Notes under the pieces: model-generated
What the model saw: the letters and a program-made list of their open reading frames with translations, nothing else
The model's database searches: none
Told to the model about the DNA's origin: nothing
Source of the DNA: a bacterium
GTDB lineage: Bacteria; RBG-13-66-14
Direction of reading: 5' to 3'
Assembly (NCBI GenBank): GCA_035528375.1
Contig: DATKYS010000093.1
Span: forward strand, 1-17,343
DNA: 17,343 nt
Made by a program: the position numbers and the translations under genes
Shown: in pieces, positions 7,241 to 12,852 of the stretch
How the letters are laid out: the number at the start of each line of letters is the position of its first letter
Numbering within the stretch: position 1 is the stretch's first letter

Positions 7241-7268
7241 AAAAAAAGCCCCGGTCGGGGGCGGCTTT
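7241..7268 (-). terminator. Rho-independent terminator of the ferredoxin gene
   Basis: On the minus strand AAAGCC pairs with GGCTTT, with inner C-rich/G-rich pairing, followed by a run of Ts, immediately after the stop codon. This is the most canonical intrinsic terminator in the window. On the plus strand the same stem has only a short T-run, so it may also slow read-through from upstream. Confidence 0.75.
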
Positions 7269-7606
7269 CACTTCCACCCGGTAGGGCGAGCCTCGTCCGC
7301 GGGCAGATCGAAGGTCTCCTCTCCTCCGGCGTCGGCAAAGGTCCAGCGGCAGCCGTCCGGGCGGCCTTCGTATAAAACCTCCCCGCCGAAGAGGGCCAGG
7401 GCGTAGGCGAGACGCGGCGTGACGGCCCCCGTGGGGCACGCCTTGACGCAGGCGCAGCAGTCCCAGCAATCCAAGGGGTTCCGGCAGAAAGCCTTGAGCG
7501 TCTGCGGATCCACGGCCATGAGGTCCCCCGGGCAGACCGCCTCGCAACGGATGACCGCCGCCTCCCGGCAGCCGTCGCAGAGCCTTGTGTCCACGTGCGC
7601 GGGCAT
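7268..7606 (-). CDS. AprB-like 2x[4Fe-4S] ferredoxin (adenylylsulfate reductase beta-subunit-like), orphan
   Basis: A 112-residue protein with two [4Fe-4S] motifs: Cys10-x2-Cys13-x7-Cys21-x3-Cys25-Pro, and Cys47-x2-Cys50-x2-Cys53-x3-Cys57-Pro. The order and spacing of MP-V-CDGC, the CPGDLM-VD segment, CWDCCACVKACPTGA and a following W-TF strand resemble AprB, the electron-transfer subunit of dissimilatory APS reductase; even the Trp48 after the first cysteine of cluster II is in the AprB position. It lacks most of the long C-terminal tail with which AprB wraps around AprA, and no aprA, sat or dsr gene is nearby. It may instead be a general ferredoxin, for example a donor to the rubrerythrins. 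The ATG at 7606 is preceded by GGAGGAG. Transcribed divergently from the HTH-cupin operon. Confidence 0.82.
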   Translation of the reverse strand: MPAHVDTRLCDGCREAAVIRCEAVCPGDLMAVDPQTLKAFCRNPLDCWDCCACVKACPTGAVTPRLAYALALFGGEVLYEGRPDGCRWTFADAGGEETFDLPADEARPTGWK

Positions 7607-7615
7607 ACTCCTCCA

Positions 7616-7640
7616 TATCTGCGACGGCGAAGCCGTAAAC
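7616..7640. repeat. 25-nt mini-hairpin repeat, copy 1
   Basis: TATCTGCGACGGCGAAGCCG plus TAAAC; ACGGC and GCCGT form a 5-bp stem with triloop GAA. It lies in the predicted 5' leader of the ferredoxin mRNA, between its promoter and Shine-Dalgarno. The second copy, at 8597-8621, differs only in the loop (GCA). Confidence 0.8.
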
Positions 7641-7648
7641 CTAAGGTT

Positions 7649-7677
7649 ATTCTAGCTCACCGTGGACCACGGGGCAA
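7649..7677 (-). promoter_or_regulatory. Promoter of the AprB-like ferredoxin gene
   Basis: On the minus strand TTGCCC (7677-7672), a 17-bp spacer and TAGAAT (7654-7649). The predicted start near 7642 places the 25-nt mini-hairpin repeat at the 5' end of the message. Confidence 0.55.
7660..7672. promoter_or_regulatory. Candidate operator, 13-bp inverted repeat
   Basis: CCGTGG-A-CCACGG is a perfect inverted repeat lying in the spacer of the minus-strand promoter and 16 bp upstream of the -35 of the divergent plus-strand promoter. This is a natural place for a repressor, perhaps the HTH protein encoded from 7764. Inference from position and symmetry only. Confidence 0.4.
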
Positions 7678-7688
7678 GGTTCCGCTTG

Positions 7689-7717
7689 TTGACCAAAAGG
7701 GGCGGCTGTTTTATAGT
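7689..7717 (+). promoter_or_regulatory. Promoter of the HTH-cupin/RmlA/cyclase operon
   Basis: TTGACC (7689-7694), a 17-bp spacer and TATAGT (7712-7717), five of six matches in each box. The expected start near 7724 gives a 40-nt leader before the ATG at 7764 and argues against an in-frame start at 7662. Its -35 lies 11 bp from the -35 of the divergent ferredoxin promoter. Confidence 0.65.
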
Positions 7718-7763
7718 TACGTCGTTCGACGAGCGTCTCACGCCCGCATTGACTGGGGGTTGG

Positions 7764-8573
7764 ATGAAGAACGTAACGGTGCAAGAAGTCAAACGGATGG
7801 CCTTCGAAATTCGCGACCGGTGCCGTCTGATAGCGAAAAACCGGGGTCAGAACCCCCGCTTCTGGAAGAGCGTGTTCGAGGAAATCGGACTGAAGAGCGG
7901 TCTGAAGGTCACGACCATCCGCCGGCTGCTGTACTCCACCGAGCCGAAAGTCCGCTACTCCACCGCCGAGAAAATGGAGAAAATCCTCCAGACGCTCGGT
8001 GGACCGTCGGTAAAACTAAGCGAAGCGAGTAATGCCCCGGCAAAAACGGAGCCAGCCACCCGCCCCGTCGAGGCGAAGAAGGGCGACCACCGGGTGGACC
8101 GCGAGCTCATTGAGGGGGTGCTGGTCAAGGAGCTGCGCATCTTCCCCGACGCCCGGGGCTACCTGATGGAGATTCTGCGCGCCGACGACTTCGGCTTCTT
8201 CGGCGACGACGCTCCCTTCGGCCAGGCGTACGTCACCTGCGTCTATCCCGGCGTGGTCAAGGCCTGGCACGCGCACCGCGCTCAGACCGACCGCTTCTCG
8301 TGCATCTGCGGCACCGCCCGATTGGTGCTCTACGACGGGCGCCCCGGCTCCCCCACCCACGGCTCGGTGAACCAGTTCGTCATCGGCAACCTGTGCCCCA
8401 GGCTCGTCCTCATACCCGCCGGGGTGCAGCACGGCTTCGCCGCCCTGGGTCCCGAACCGGCCCTGGTGCTCAACATCCCCACCAAAACCTACGACTACAT
8501 GGACCCCGACGAACAGCGCCTCGACCCCCACTCGAACGACATCCCCTTCGATTGGAACCGCGTGGACGGCTGA
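7764..8573 (+). CDS. HTH-like domain fused to an RmlC-like (dTDP-4-dehydrorhamnose 3,5-epimerase family) cupin
   Basis: A 269-residue two-domain protein. Residues 1-77 are basic and helical with a helix-turn-helix-like stretch (VFEEIGLKSGLKVTTIRRLL, then YSTAEKMEKILQTLG, reminiscent of a LacI/XRE-type reader followed by a helix). Residues about 112-269 form an RmlC-family cupin with LIEGVLVKELRIFPDARGYL, VVKAWHAHRAQTD, a cupin half-site around IPAGVQHGF, and the NIPTKTYDY ending. Such cupins are normally free-standing proteins of about 150 residues. The linker (about 83-96, KLSEASNAPAKTE) is encoded by an interspersed repeat copy at 8019-8047. It may be an epimerase of dTDP-sugar synthesis, given RmlA next door, or a sugar-nucleotide-sensing regulator. 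The ATG at 7764 fits the promoter; its Shine-Dalgarno is weak. Fusion and cupin identity are firm, DNA binding is inferred. Confidence 0.82.
   Translation: MKNVTVQEVKRMAFEIRDRCRLIAKNRGQNPRFWKSVFEEIGLKSGLKVTTIRRLLYSTEPKVRYSTAEKMEKILQTLGGPSVKLSEASNAPAKTEPATRPVEAKKGDHRVDRELIEGVLVKELRIFPDARGYLMEILRADDFGFFGDDAPFGQAYVTCVYPGVVKAWHAHRAQTDRFSCICGTARLVLYDGRPGSPTHGSVNQFVIGNLCPRLVLIPAGVQHGFAALGPEPALVLNIPTKTYDYMDPDEQRLDPHSNDIPFDWNRVDG
8019..8047. repeat. Interspersed repeat inside the HTH-cupin reading frame
   Basis: AGCGAAGCGAG followed by TAATGCCCCGGC and AAAAAC; its intergenic relative at 14934-14962 shares AGCGAAGCGAG, ATGCC, CCGG and AAAAC at the same spacing. Here it is translated as the interdomain linker. 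Confidence 0.65.
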
Positions 8574-8574
8574 G

Positions 8575-8639
8575 AAACGAAGTAACGCCCCCGGCGTATC
8601 TGCGACGGCGCAGCCGTAAACGAAGTAGCGCCTCTGGCG
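8575..8639. repeat. Mini-hairpin repeat copy 2 flanked by direct repeats
   Basis: The 25-nt mini-hairpin (8597-8621, triloop GCA) is bracketed by two imperfect direct repeats beginning AAACGAAGTA (8575-8596 and 8618-8639), which match at 19 of 22 positions. The unit fills nearly the whole gap between the HTH-cupin gene and rmlA. It may be a small mobile repeat or a regulatory RNA structure. Confidence 0.7.
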
Positions 8640-8650
8640 AAAGGGGCAGC

Positions 8651-9391
8651 GTGAAGGGCATCGTCCTGGCCGGCGGCCTCGGAACCCGCCTCGACCCCCT
8701 GACCCGGGTCACGAACAAGCACCTCCTCCCGGTTTACGACCGGCCGATGATCTACTACCCCCTGGAGACCCTTATAAGCGCCGGGATAACCGAGATAATG
8801 CTCGTGACCGGCGGCCAGAACGCCGGCGGGTTCCTGGAGCTTCTGGGCAACGGTCACGAGCTCGGCCTCGAGCACCTCAACTACACCTACCAGAAGGGCC
8901 ACGGCGGCATCGCCGAGGCGCTGGGGCTCTGCGAGCACTTCGTGGGCGGGGACAGGATGTGCGTGATCCTGGGGGACAACCTTCTCCAGCGCGGGATCGG
9001 CGACCAGGCGCGCGCCTTCGAGGCGCAGCCCGGCGGGGCGAGGATTCTGTTGAAAGAGGTACCCGACCCCGCGCGTTTCGGGGTGCCGGTCTTCGACGGG
9101 AAGGGTAAGATTCTGCGCATCGAGGAGAAACCAAAGAAGCCGGCCAGCCCCTACGCGGTCATCGGCATTTACTTCTACGACGACCTGGTGTGGGAAACCA
9201 TCCGCGGCCTCTCCCCCAGCGCCCGGAACGAGCTGGAAATCACCGACGTGAACAACGCCTACCTGGAGCGCGGCCTGCTCGAGCACGGGTTCGTGGACGG
9301 CTGGTGGACCGACGCCGGGACCTTCGAGTCCCTCTTCCGGGCCACCGAGCTCGTCCGCCGCGAGGGTGCGGGCGAGGGCGGAAGCCCATGA
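8651..9391 (+). CDS. rmlA: Glucose-1-phosphate thymidylyltransferase-like nucleotidyltransferase (short RmlA type)
   Basis: Joins dTTP (or another NTP) and a sugar 1-phosphate to give the nucleotide sugar, the first step towards dTDP-rhamnose and related envelope sugars. The N-terminal signature is intact: GIVLAGGLGTRLDPLT, then NKHLLPVYDRPMIYYPL with the conserved Lys23. The metal-binding aspartates are present as Asp109 (LGDN) and Asp221 (WWTDAG), and RIEEKPKKPASPYAVIGIY is typical of the sugar-binding core. At 246 residues it lacks the C-terminal extension of about 45 residues found in classical RmlA (about 290), as in many short bacterial and archaeal homologues. The GTG at 8651 has AAAGGGG just upstream. 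Its stop overlaps the next start as ATGA. rmlB and rmlD are not in the window, so the end product is unknown. Confidence 0.92.
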   Translation: MKGIVLAGGLGTRLDPLTRVTNKHLLPVYDRPMIYYPLETLISAGITEIMLVTGGQNAGGFLELLGNGHELGLEHLNYTYQKGHGGIAEALGLCEHFVGGDRMCVILGDNLLQRGIGDQARAFEAQPGGARILLKEVPDPARFGVPVFDGKGKILRIEEKPKKPASPYAVIGIYFYDDLVWETIRGLSPSARNELEITDVNNAYLERGLLEHGFVDGWWTDAGTFESLFRATELVRREGAGEGGSP

Positions 9392-12300
9392 CCGAGACTT
9401 CATCTACGGGCGCCGACAGGCTCTGGCGGGCCGACGGCGGCCTGCTCTGCCTCGTGGACGTCACGGGCTTCACCCCCCTCACCGAAGAGCTCACCAAACT
9501 GGGCCCCGAGGGCAACGAGCACCTCACGGGGCTTTTGAACGCCTTTTTCGGCGCCCTGACCGAGGAGGTGGCCGAGGGCGGAGGCCACACCCTCCAGTTC
9601 GGCGGCGACGCCTACTGGGCGTATTTCCAGAACGCCGACGCCGGAGAACGGGCCTGCCGCAGGATGCTCCGGCGCGTGGCGGGGCTCGGCGAACAGATGT
9701 TCGGTAACCGGCGGTACAGGTTGGAGGCCGATCTCGTCGCCGCCCGTGAGATGGAATTCGAGCTGTGGCGTGTCGGGCCGGACCGGTGTCATCTCGTCCT
9801 CATCGGGGACGCGGTGGCCAAGGTCTCGCGGACGGAGAGGCTCGTCGGTCCCGGGGAGTACGCCGTCCTCCACGGCGGGGGCCGCGGTACGTCTGGGGGC
9901 GACGTCGCCGGGTTCCTGTCCGACCGTCCCGCCCCGCCGCCGCACCGCGCCGGACTGCGTCCCACCACGGCGGTTTTCGCCCTCCTCCCCCGGTCCACGA
10001 CGCCGGACGACCTCGACGAGCTGGTGATAAAGGCCCATCGCGTGTGCGAACGCCACGAGGCGCTGCTGGCGAAAATCGTCCCCTTCGATGAGCGCCAGGC
10101 GGTGCTCGCGCTCCTGGGAACCCCCCGGGCCCACGACGACGACCCCCGGCGCGGGGTGAACCTGGCCCTGGAACTGGTCCGGGACCTGGGCCTGACGGGC
10201 GCGGCGGTGGCCGGCGGATACGTCTACGTCGGCCCCGTGGGCGGCGCCTCGGCCTGGGAGTACACCGCCATCGGCGACCCGGTGAACCTCGCGGCCCGGC
10301 TCCTCGAGGCCGCGGGTCCGGGGCAGGTCCTGGTCTCCGAGGATACGTGCCGACTCTGCAGCGCGGACGTCAACCTCGAGCTGGCCTGGCGCAAGAGGGT
10401 CAGAGGAAAGGCCGGCGAGGTCACCGCCTGGCTGGCCCTGGGGAGTTTCGGCGGGCTCAAGCCGACCCGGCTCCGGTACGAGCTGGTCGGTCGCCGCGAG
10501 GAGTTGTCGCGGGTGGACCGCCTCCTGGCGAAAGGCTCGGGCGTTCTCTACATCATGGGTGACGCCGGAATCGGCAAATCGCGCCTCCTGACGGAAACGG
10601 AGAACCGCGCCCGGGCCGCAGGATACCGCACCGTCGCGGGACAGGTTGACCAGATGCACCGCGATTTCGGCTTGTTGCAGAGTATTTTCGAAAACCTGGC
10701 CGGCGTCCTGGAAACGGACACCCCCACCTCGACCACCGAGAAGCTCGACGCCCTCTTCGAGGATAAACTGCCCGAGAAGTCGGTCCTCGACCGCCGCCGC
10801 TGGCGCACGGTCATCGGCGCCCTCGTGTTCCACCTCGAATCGGAGCACCGGGTCATTTCCGGATACGCGCCGGAGGTCGTACAGAACAGCCTCGTGGAAA
10901 GTATCGCCGACCTGATGAAAAAACTCGCCGGCGACGGCCTCTTTCTCGCCGTTGACGACCTCCACCTGGCCGACGAATCTTCCTGCGCCATGCTGGAAGC
11001 CGCACTCAAGGCGTGCGGCGGGACGGACGGGCCGGTGCTGGTGGCCTCGGCCCGCGGGGAGGGCCGCTTTGCCGAGATAGCTCGAAGACCGTTCTTCAGT
11101 CTGGGAGCCGAGGAAATGGTCCTCGGGGAGCTGGGCGACGAAGTCTGGCACATAGGCGACGAGCTCCTGGACGGGCTCCCGCTGGAAGAGGAGATACGCC
11201 TGTGGGTCCTCGAACAGGCCCAGGGCAATCCCTTCTTCCTCGAGCAGCTAGTGCTGGACCTCATCGAGCGGGGGTTCATCGTGCGCCGCGGGGACAGATG
11301 GGTCGCCGGCGGCGGTTACATCCCGGAGCGGCTGCCCGTAAACGTCTTCGCCACCATCCTCGCCCGCGTGGACCGCCTGAGCCCGGCCTCCGCGGAAATT
11401 CTCCGCGTGGCCAGCGTCATCGGCCAGCGCTTCGACGAGAGGCTGATCGAGGCCCTCCTGCCCGGCCGACTCGAGGCGCTGGGCGAAGCCGTAACAGCGC
11501 CCGCAGGTAAATCGGCGGGGCTCGCCGTGCGCGACTCCAGGGAGGAGCTGGCCTACCTCTTCCGCCACTCCCTGGTTCGCGAGGTCACCTACCGGTCCCT
11601 GTTGGTGGAGCAACGGAAGAAGCTCCACCACGACGTGGCCCGGGCGATGGTGGACATGGAGAAGCCGCCGGGCGAGATAGCCGTGCACTTCGAGCGAGCC
11701 GGGTGTCTGCCCGAGGCCGCCGGGTATTTTCTGAAAAGCGCCGAGAGCAAGAAGAACTACGGCTCTTACGCGCAGGCGCAGAACGAAGCGAGACGAGCCC
11801 TCGAAATCGCGCGGGAGATCAACGACCCGGTATTGGCGAACCTGGCCCGTCTGGCGCTGGCCGACTTCCTCTCCCTGCTCGGACGGTCCGACGAATCGCT
11901 GCCCCTCCTCGAGGAAACCTTCGCCAGTTCGATGGAGCTCCACGAATCCTGCCTCGCGGTAAAGGTCTGCCGCCTCGCCGTTCAATCACTGTTGAGACTC
12001 GGCCAAATCCCGGAGATATCCGGCTGGGTGGAACGGGCCGAAGAGGCGGCGGGGGACGATCCGTTCCTCGAAATATCCATCGCGCCGATCCGCTCCTACC
12101 CCGACATGTTCGCCCAACGGTTTGACGAGGCGGCGAAAATCGTCGAACGGGCGGCCGCGCTCCTGCCGGACCCCCGCACCGACGAGGAGATCCGAGCCAT
12201 GGCCTTCGTCCACGGAAACCTGGCCGTCCTATACGGGAATCTGCACCGCATGGAAGAAGCGGAGCACCAGTTCCGCCGGGCCATCGAGCTGGCGGAGAGA

Positions 12301-12852
12301 ACCGACGACCGGTCCCTCACCCTCGACAACCAGTTGAACCTTTCCAGCGTCCTCGCCGCGGAGTCGAGGCTCGACGAGGCTTTGGCAATCCTGCACCGTT
12401 GCGCCGAGGAGTACGAGGCGATGGGCTACCATCCGGGGCTCAGCCTGGCGCTGTTCAACCTGGCACAGATCGAGGTCAGGTCGAACGACGGGGAAGGGGC
12501 GATACGGGATTTCGGGAAAAGCCTCCACTTCGCGCGGAGGACGAAGAACATCCCCCGAGTCGCACGGACGGCGTCGCTCCTCGGCTACCACCTCGTTCGC
12601 ATCGGTCGGCCGGAGGAGGCCGGGGAGCTTCTGGACGAAACCCTGAGACTTTACGAGGAACACGACTTCGACAACCAGAAGGGGCTTGTGTACGCTATCC
12701 GGGCCTATTACGACGCGCGAACGGGCGACGCGGAATCGGCCCGACGATTTATGAGGCTGGCCGAGGAGAACCCCGTCCCGGACTCGCAGCCGCCCCAGGA
12801 CGAGGTGATGAACCTGGCGCGGGCCGAACTGGGTGGAGCGGATGATGCCTGA
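9388..12852 (+). CDS. Soluble-adenylyl-cyclase-like protein: two class III cyclase domains, AAA ATPase and TPR region
   Basis: A 1154-residue cytoplasmic protein. Cyclase domain 1 (about 15-140) has both metal-binding aspartates, Asp24 in VDVTGF and Asp74 in FGGDAYW. Cyclase domain 2 (about 190-330) lacks metal ligands but supplies Lys229, Thr293 and the transition-state pair Asn300 and Arg304 (YTAIGDPVNLAAR). The two halves should therefore make one active site, as in mammalian soluble adenylyl cyclase (ADCY10), which also continues into a P-loop and TPR region. The AAA/STAND-like domain has Walker A at 391-398 (GDAGIGKS) and Walker B LAVDDLH with Asp523/Asp524. From about 770 to the end the sequence is helical with TPR-like repeats. 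Predicted product cAMP (Lys/Thr pair). Gln70 stands where ADCY10 has a lysine said to bind bicarbonate. Start is set by the ATGA overlap with rmlA; the stop overlaps the ABC gene. Confidence 0.9.
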   Translation: MTETSSTGADRLWRADGGLLCLVDVTGFTPLTEELTKLGPEGNEHLTGLLNAFFGALTEEVAEGGGHTLQFGGDAYWAYFQNADAGERACRRMLRRVAGLGEQMFGNRRYRLEADLVAAREMEFELWRVGPDRCHLVLIGDAVAKVSRTERLVGPGEYAVLHGGGRGTSGGDVAGFLSDRPAPPPHRAGLRPTTAVFALLPRSTTPDDLDELVIKAHRVCERHEALLAKIVPFDERQAVLALLGTPRAHDDDPRRGVNLALELVRDLGLTGAAVAGGYVYVGPVGGASAWEYTAIGDPVNLAARLLEAAGPGQVLVSEDTCRLCSADVNLELAWRKRVRGKAGEVTAWLALGSFGGLKPTRLRYELVGRREELSRVDRLLAKGSGVLYIMGDAGIGKSRLLTETENRARAAGYRTVAGQVDQMHRDFGLLQSIFENLAGVLETDTPTSTTEKLDALFEDKLPEKSVLDRRRWRTVIGALVFHLESEHRVISGYAPEVVQNSLVESIADLMKKLAGDGLFLAVDDLHLADESSCAMLEAALKACGGTDGPVLVASARGEGRFAEIARRPFFSLGAEEMVLGELGDEVWHIGDELLDGLPLEEEIRLWVLEQAQGNPFFLEQLVLDLIERGFIVRRGDRWVAGGGYIPERLPVNVFATILARVDRLSPASAEILRVASVIGQRFDERLIEALLPGRLEALGEAVTAPAGKSAGLAVRDSREELAYLFRHSLVREVTYRSLLVEQRKKLHHDVARAMVDMEKPPGEIAVHFERAGCLPEAAGYFLKSAESKKNYGSYAQAQNEARRALEIAREINDPVLANLARLALADFLSLLGRSDESLPLLEETFASSMELHESCLAVKVCRLAVQSLLRLGQIPEISGWVERAEEAAGDDPFLEISIAPIRSYPDMFAQRFDEAAKIVERAAALLPDPRTDEEIRAMAFVHGNLAVLYGNLHRMEEAEHQFRRAIELAERTDDRSLTLDNQLNLSSVLAAESRLDEALAILHRCAEEYEAMGYHPGLSLALFNLAQIEVRSNDGEGAIRDFGKSLHFARRTKNIPRVARTASLLGYHLVRIGRPEEAGELLDETLRLYEEHDFDNQKGLVYAIRAYYDARTGDAESARRFMRLAEENPVPDSQPPQDEVMNLARAELGGADDA
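11483..11513. repeat. Possible repeat relic inside the cyclase gene
   Basis: GGCGAAGCCGTAA is identical over 13 nt to part of the mini-hairpin repeat at 7616-7640, and the following CAGCGCCCGCAGGTAAA loosely resembles the AGCGCC...GGCGAAA part of 8628-8642. It encodes EAVTAPAGK, a likely loop just before the conserved YLFRHSLVREVTY helix. The match is short and could be chance. Confidence 0.3.

Follow-up and report, generated by a model that had tools for sequence, protein, structure and literature searches.

The window analysed here (the whole stretch of DNA, 17,343 nucleotides) contains on its forward strand, at positions 7764–8573, a single open reading frame without a break (ATG at 7764, TGA at 8571–8573), which encodes a 269-aa protein composed of a predicted helix-turn-helix (HTH) domain of the LacI type, a linker and a PF00908 cupin. 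The N-terminal domain (7764–8003, residues 1–80) carries a net charge of +10 and includes the putative LacI-type HTH core (7887–8000, residues 42–79). The linker (8004–8099, residues 81–112) differs in length between species and is predicted to be disordered at residues 81–106 when AlphaFold2 is run on the whole protein. It leads into the cupin (8100–8564, residues 113–267), whose metal-cupin motif spans 8250–8432 (residues 163–223). A preliminary description of the locus had given the N-terminal segment a length of about 77 residues, which we correct to a domain of approximately 80 residues plus a 32-residue linker; its statement that both parts lie in one uninterrupted frame under one promoter is confirmed by the 269-aa frame and by a sigma-70-like promoter just upstream (TTGACC-17-TATAGT, 7689–7717, forward strand). 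This promoter has 10 of 12 consensus matches, with 0.2 promoter-like sites predicted from shuffled sequences; it is retained in two congeners, and promoter-like sites occur upstream in two other genera too.

The same fusion was found in five genomes, the window genome included, which belong to three genera of one family of Coatesbacteria, a phylum of which we know no cultured member. The gene order is kept across these genomes: a divergent 4Fe-4S ferredoxin-like gene on the reverse strand (7268–7606 in the window), the fusion gene, and directly downstream of it a gene for an RmlA-like sugar-1-phosphate nucleotidylyltransferase (8651–9391, forward strand, 246 aa), with a gene for an ABC ATPase further downstream. 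Within the genus, another gene (9190–12852), which encodes a guanylate-cyclase-like domain, an AAA_16 ATPase and TPR repeats, lies between RmlA and the ABC ATPase; a tblastn search of the two remaining fusion genera did not find it.

The N-terminal domain

AlphaFold2 modelled residues 1–82 alone as four helices (6–26, 31–42, 49–57 and 65–77) with pLDDT 87 and pTM 0.79. A profile built from the five heads was compared with 386 genomes, and all nine matches from outside Coatesbacteria with E below 1e-3 were LacI regulators, in each case aligned in register at the N-terminal HTH. The hhalign comparison of residues 42–79 gave a probability of 97% with the LacI loci found by the profile, and of 92% (score 34.8) with an unselected LacI set, made up of five sequences not picked by the head profile; the best of 60 column shuffles of the latter set reached a score of 13.8 and a probability of 1.4%. 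The corresponding comparison of the head with XRE HTHs, represented by two sequences only, yielded 1%. CcpA and other LacI proteins are also among the weak PDB profile matches of the head. The HTH-like character ascribed earlier to the N-terminus is supported by profile comparison, and at the level of homology the head appears to be an HTH of the LacI type.

The LacI likeness is confined to residues 42–79, and helix 6–26 has no match. Searches of Pfam, NCBIfam and PHROGs with residues 1–110 returned nothing significant; the Pfam LacI model matched one of the five heads with an E-value of 0.031, far from significance, and no Pfam HTH model reached its cutoff. The best Foldseek match of the domain (E of about 1) was likewise not significant, with mostly HTH proteins among the top matches, and VIA-align placed at the top YfmB, a protein whose function is not known, with a Z-score of 6.7 that lies within the background for helical domains; weak XRE fold matches were also obtained (Z up to 6.1), 1y9q appearing weakly among the results. 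Compared with LacI-family regulators, the fusion protein aligns in register over the HTH core but lacks the hinge helix and the periplasmic-binding-protein-like sensor, and has instead an extra helix in front and an enzyme-family cupin behind.

The restricted extent of the LacI match, the insignificant Pfam and Foldseek scores and the fact that the gene always adjoins RmlA in the fusion genomes would agree with an enzyme whose HTH-derived head is now an accessory domain that does not bind DNA but helps in oligomerisation or in contacting a partner, e.g. RmlA. However, the residues that are invariant in the heads (T51, RRLLY and EPxVR) sit in the putative recognition helix (49–57, VTTIRRLLY) and the loop that follows it, every one of the five heads is strongly basic (net charge +7 to +12, against -5 to -7 for the cupin), and the long disordered linker fits an independent head. 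We regard such an accessory domain as possible but rather unlikely.

The cupin domain and its pathway context

The match to PF00908 covers residues 116–265 (E-value 1.2e-17, 64.6 bits against a gathering cutoff of 27). The nearest solved relatives are 3ejk and RmlC-type epimerases by sequence, and RmlC-like epimerases, the best PDB matches, by fold. The score against the RmlC equivalog TIGR01221 (50.2 bits) remains below the curated cutoff of 155.75, and that against Cupin_2 (19.8 bits) below 27.2. The catalytic residues of RmlC are His63, Lys73, Tyr133 and Asp170 (PMC7949155). The catalytic base His63 is retained as H169 in all 40 homologues, whereas HMMER alignments place Asp176 of the fusion protein at Lys73 and Asn237 at Tyr133. 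The cupin chain stops before the position of Asp170, which we presume to lie beyond its C-terminus, and the dyad partner is missing. With one of the four catalytic residues kept, the cupin is RmlC-like but not a canonical RmlC, and its exact reaction is uncertain because Lys73, Tyr133 and the Asp170 dyad partner are missing. Of the earlier designation as an RmlC-type epimerase cupin, the fold and the PF00908 family hold, whereas the TIGR01221 score and the three absent catalytic residues speak against RmlC proper, and the cupin is a member of a subfamily of short proteins that carry a metal-cupin motif.

The members of this subfamily, to which we refer as the short SpsL type, are proteins of approximately 150–180 aa without an HTH domain; the fusion cupin is about 50–60% identical to stand-alone members that adjoin RmlA or RmlB and has the same HxH...D...H motif. 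In full, this reads G163-x5-H169-x-H171-x4-D176-x6-G183 ... P218-x-G220-x2-H223, which we take to be the classical metal-cupin motif. Its three His residues and the Asp are invariant in 40 of 40 aligned homologue rows, two of which (G002 and L034) are one gene. RmlC is cofactor-free, and it differs from the fusion protein also in having no fused HTH. The short subfamily as a whole lacks Lys73 of RmlC, and the fusion protein lacks Tyr133; the invariant metal-cupin motif together with the loss of three catalytic residues makes the RmlC mechanism questionable for short PF00908 proteins.

In the window genome the fusion is the sole PF00908 gene, and wherever PF00908 genes are present there is one per genome. 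The window genome also encodes RmlD, detected above cutoff, and an RmlB-like protein just below cutoff, whose gene is possibly truncated. An enzymatic (epimerase) role of the cupin is favoured because the only PF00908 gene of a genome with RmlB and RmlD is the fusion, and on these sequence grounds we consider this role likely. In the majority of 23 loci from other bacteria, stand-alone members of the subfamily have RmlB, RmlA or both as neighbours. The member from a Priestia plasmid closes an rfbA-rfbB-rfbD-cupin operon near cgeA, in the same order as the spsIJKL genes of B. subtilis, which two papers report to encode a dTDP-L-rhamnose pathway (PMC7439481, PMC4191935). From this gene order we infer SpsL orthology for the Priestia gene; its cupin has a Tyr at the position of Asn237 in the fusion protein. 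At a further locus (L087, G512:C23) a subfamily cupin runs into RmlB in one 507-aa frame, from which the C-terminus of the cupin and the N-terminus of RmlB are missing; this frame looks like a deletion fusion or an assembly join.

Conservation of only one of the four RmlC catalytic residues would also be expected of a dedicated one-component regulator, in which catalysis is lost and the cupin only senses a sugar nucleotide. XRE-cupin regulators (HTH_3 + Cupin_2) are a common architecture of this kind, and 1y9q, as mentioned above, is a weak fold match. The fusion protein resembles them in its succession of small HTH head, linker and cupin, but its HTH appears closer to LacI than to XRE and its cupin belongs to PF00908 and not to Cupin_2. 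Moreover, the same residue changes are seen in stand-alone subfamily members of rml operons, and the genome has no other PF00908 gene despite its RmlB and RmlD, which makes a purely regulatory cupin improbable.

The upstream region and the proposed function

The fusion gene faces the divergent ferredoxin-like gene, for which a promoter-like site is found on the reverse strand (TTGCCC-17-TAGAAT, 7649–7677); the promoter-like sites in both directions are kept within the genus. The block 7646–7727 is 83% identical in both congeners, as against 30–35% for the 46 bases before it (7600–7645). Between the divergent promoters lies a 13-bp palindrome, CCGTGGACCACGG (7660–7672), which is a candidate operator. 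It is perfect in the window genome only; its core reads TGGACCA, CGGACCG and CGGGCCG in three congeners (YGGNCCR), i.e. the palindrome is kept by paired changes. Short palindromes like this core are common, and we treat it as a weak candidate; an operator palindrome common to the genera was sought in the fusion genera and not found.

Taking the head and the cupin together, we propose with moderate confidence that the protein is bifunctional, combining a dTDP-sugar epimerase of the SpsL type with a LacI-type DNA-binding head, and that it probably autoregulates its locus. The C-terminal cupin, being of the short SpsL type, would serve the organism as its dTDP-4-keto-6-deoxy-sugar epimerase and carry out the RmlC step on the way to dTDP-L-rhamnose or a sugar like it. 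The HTH in the N-terminal 80 residues would bind DNA, its most probable target being the stretch with the divergent promoters that precedes the fusion gene (7643–7727); there a cupin dimer could place a pair of heads on a palindrome. Occupancy of the cupin by a sugar nucleotide may tune DNA binding, and the enzyme would in this way report the status of the pathway to the fusion-rmlA operon and possibly also to the ferredoxin-like gene. We infer catalysis, the pairing by the dimer, DNA binding, the operator and the response to the ligand, and it is homology, charge and synteny that suggest a regulatory role of the fusion. The functions of a regulator and of an enzyme with an accessory domain are compatible and need not exclude each other.

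More tentatively, the bifunctional protein could be a single-protein feedback switch for sugars of the dTDP-rhamnose type, in which an active epimerase represses its own operon via a captured LacI-type head; its cupin subfamily may also be metal-dependent, unlike RmlC. BirA and NadR are HTH-enzyme autoregulators. By homology, the fusion protein would share with them the N-terminal HTH on a biosynthetic enzyme, an analogy in the way of working, although both its enzyme and its HTH are unrelated to theirs. If the proposal is true, a sugar-nucleotide epimerase joins the few enzymes that also act as regulators by binding DNA.

Distribution and origin of the fusion, and repeats at the locus

Our sample of Coatesbacteria comprised 14 genomes of the phylum, 11 of which contain the cupin. 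The preliminary description had considered that the frame might result from faulty assembly; four more assembled genomes (G010, G009, G012 and G013) contain the same fusion, which demonstrates that it is real. Its full-length identity with the congeners is 90 and 87%, and within the genus dN/dS, calculated from NG86 values, amounts to 0.08–0.18 for residues 1–80 versus 0.24–0.29 for the cupin, so that purifying selection is stronger on residues 1–80 than on the cupin. Even though long chance frames arise in GC-rich genomes and several stand-alone cupins have an unrelated open frame upstream, the fusion is conserved in three genera, occurs in five separate assemblies and has a low dN/dS. This refutes the idea that the N-terminal part is a spurious extension of the frame or belongs to another gene brought in by misassembly, which we consider hardly conceivable. 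We conclude that this is a lineage-specific fusion of an HTH and an enzyme.

A sixth member of the fusion family (G008, a genome that is 70% complete), in which we read the 5' context of the cupin gene, has the cupin without the N-terminal domain; here the loss of the domain accompanies the loss of the RmlA neighbour. Other families of Coatesbacteria possess a stand-alone cupin of 152–161 aa that precedes RmlA. In the cupin tree the entire fusion family forms one clade (100/99), within which G008 branches among the fusions (96/75), and therefore one gain and one loss of the HTH head is the simplest reading. If true, an otherwise ordinary enzyme acquired an HTH head on one occasion and lost it again on another.

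The N-terminal domain was not found elsewhere in the 14 Coatesbacteria genomes beyond the five fusions, and the matches from a sample of 386 genomes and from 132 genomes of another class included no HTH-cupin frame from outside the family. Searches of phage and plasmid collections did not reveal the fusion either, and a literature search found no report of one. Longer cupin frames do exist in other bacteria (G081, G189, G185, G338, G170, G423, G403 and others); their upstream parts are GC-rich read-through in which no HTH is apparent by eye, a reading that leaves out the extension in G322.

The linker coding sequence contains, in frame, a copy (8020–8038, forward strand) of a dispersed short repeat with the core GCGAAGCGAGCTATGCCCC, and the differences in linker length between species seem to stem from repeat expansion. 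With up to 2 mismatches allowed, this repeat is present 78 times in the genome (e.g. in L092–L107), versus 2 for a reversed-pattern control, and several of the copies are inserts of approximately 30 nt inside hairpins such as GGCGGGGATTT/AAATCCCCGCC or AAGGGGTTT/AAACCCC. Another repeat, TATCTGCGACGGCGMAGCCGTAAAC, occurs on either side of the fusion gene (7616–7640 and 8597–8621) and has no further exact copy in the genome; a variant of it is nested beside the GCGAAGCGAGCTATGCCCC repeat in L106.
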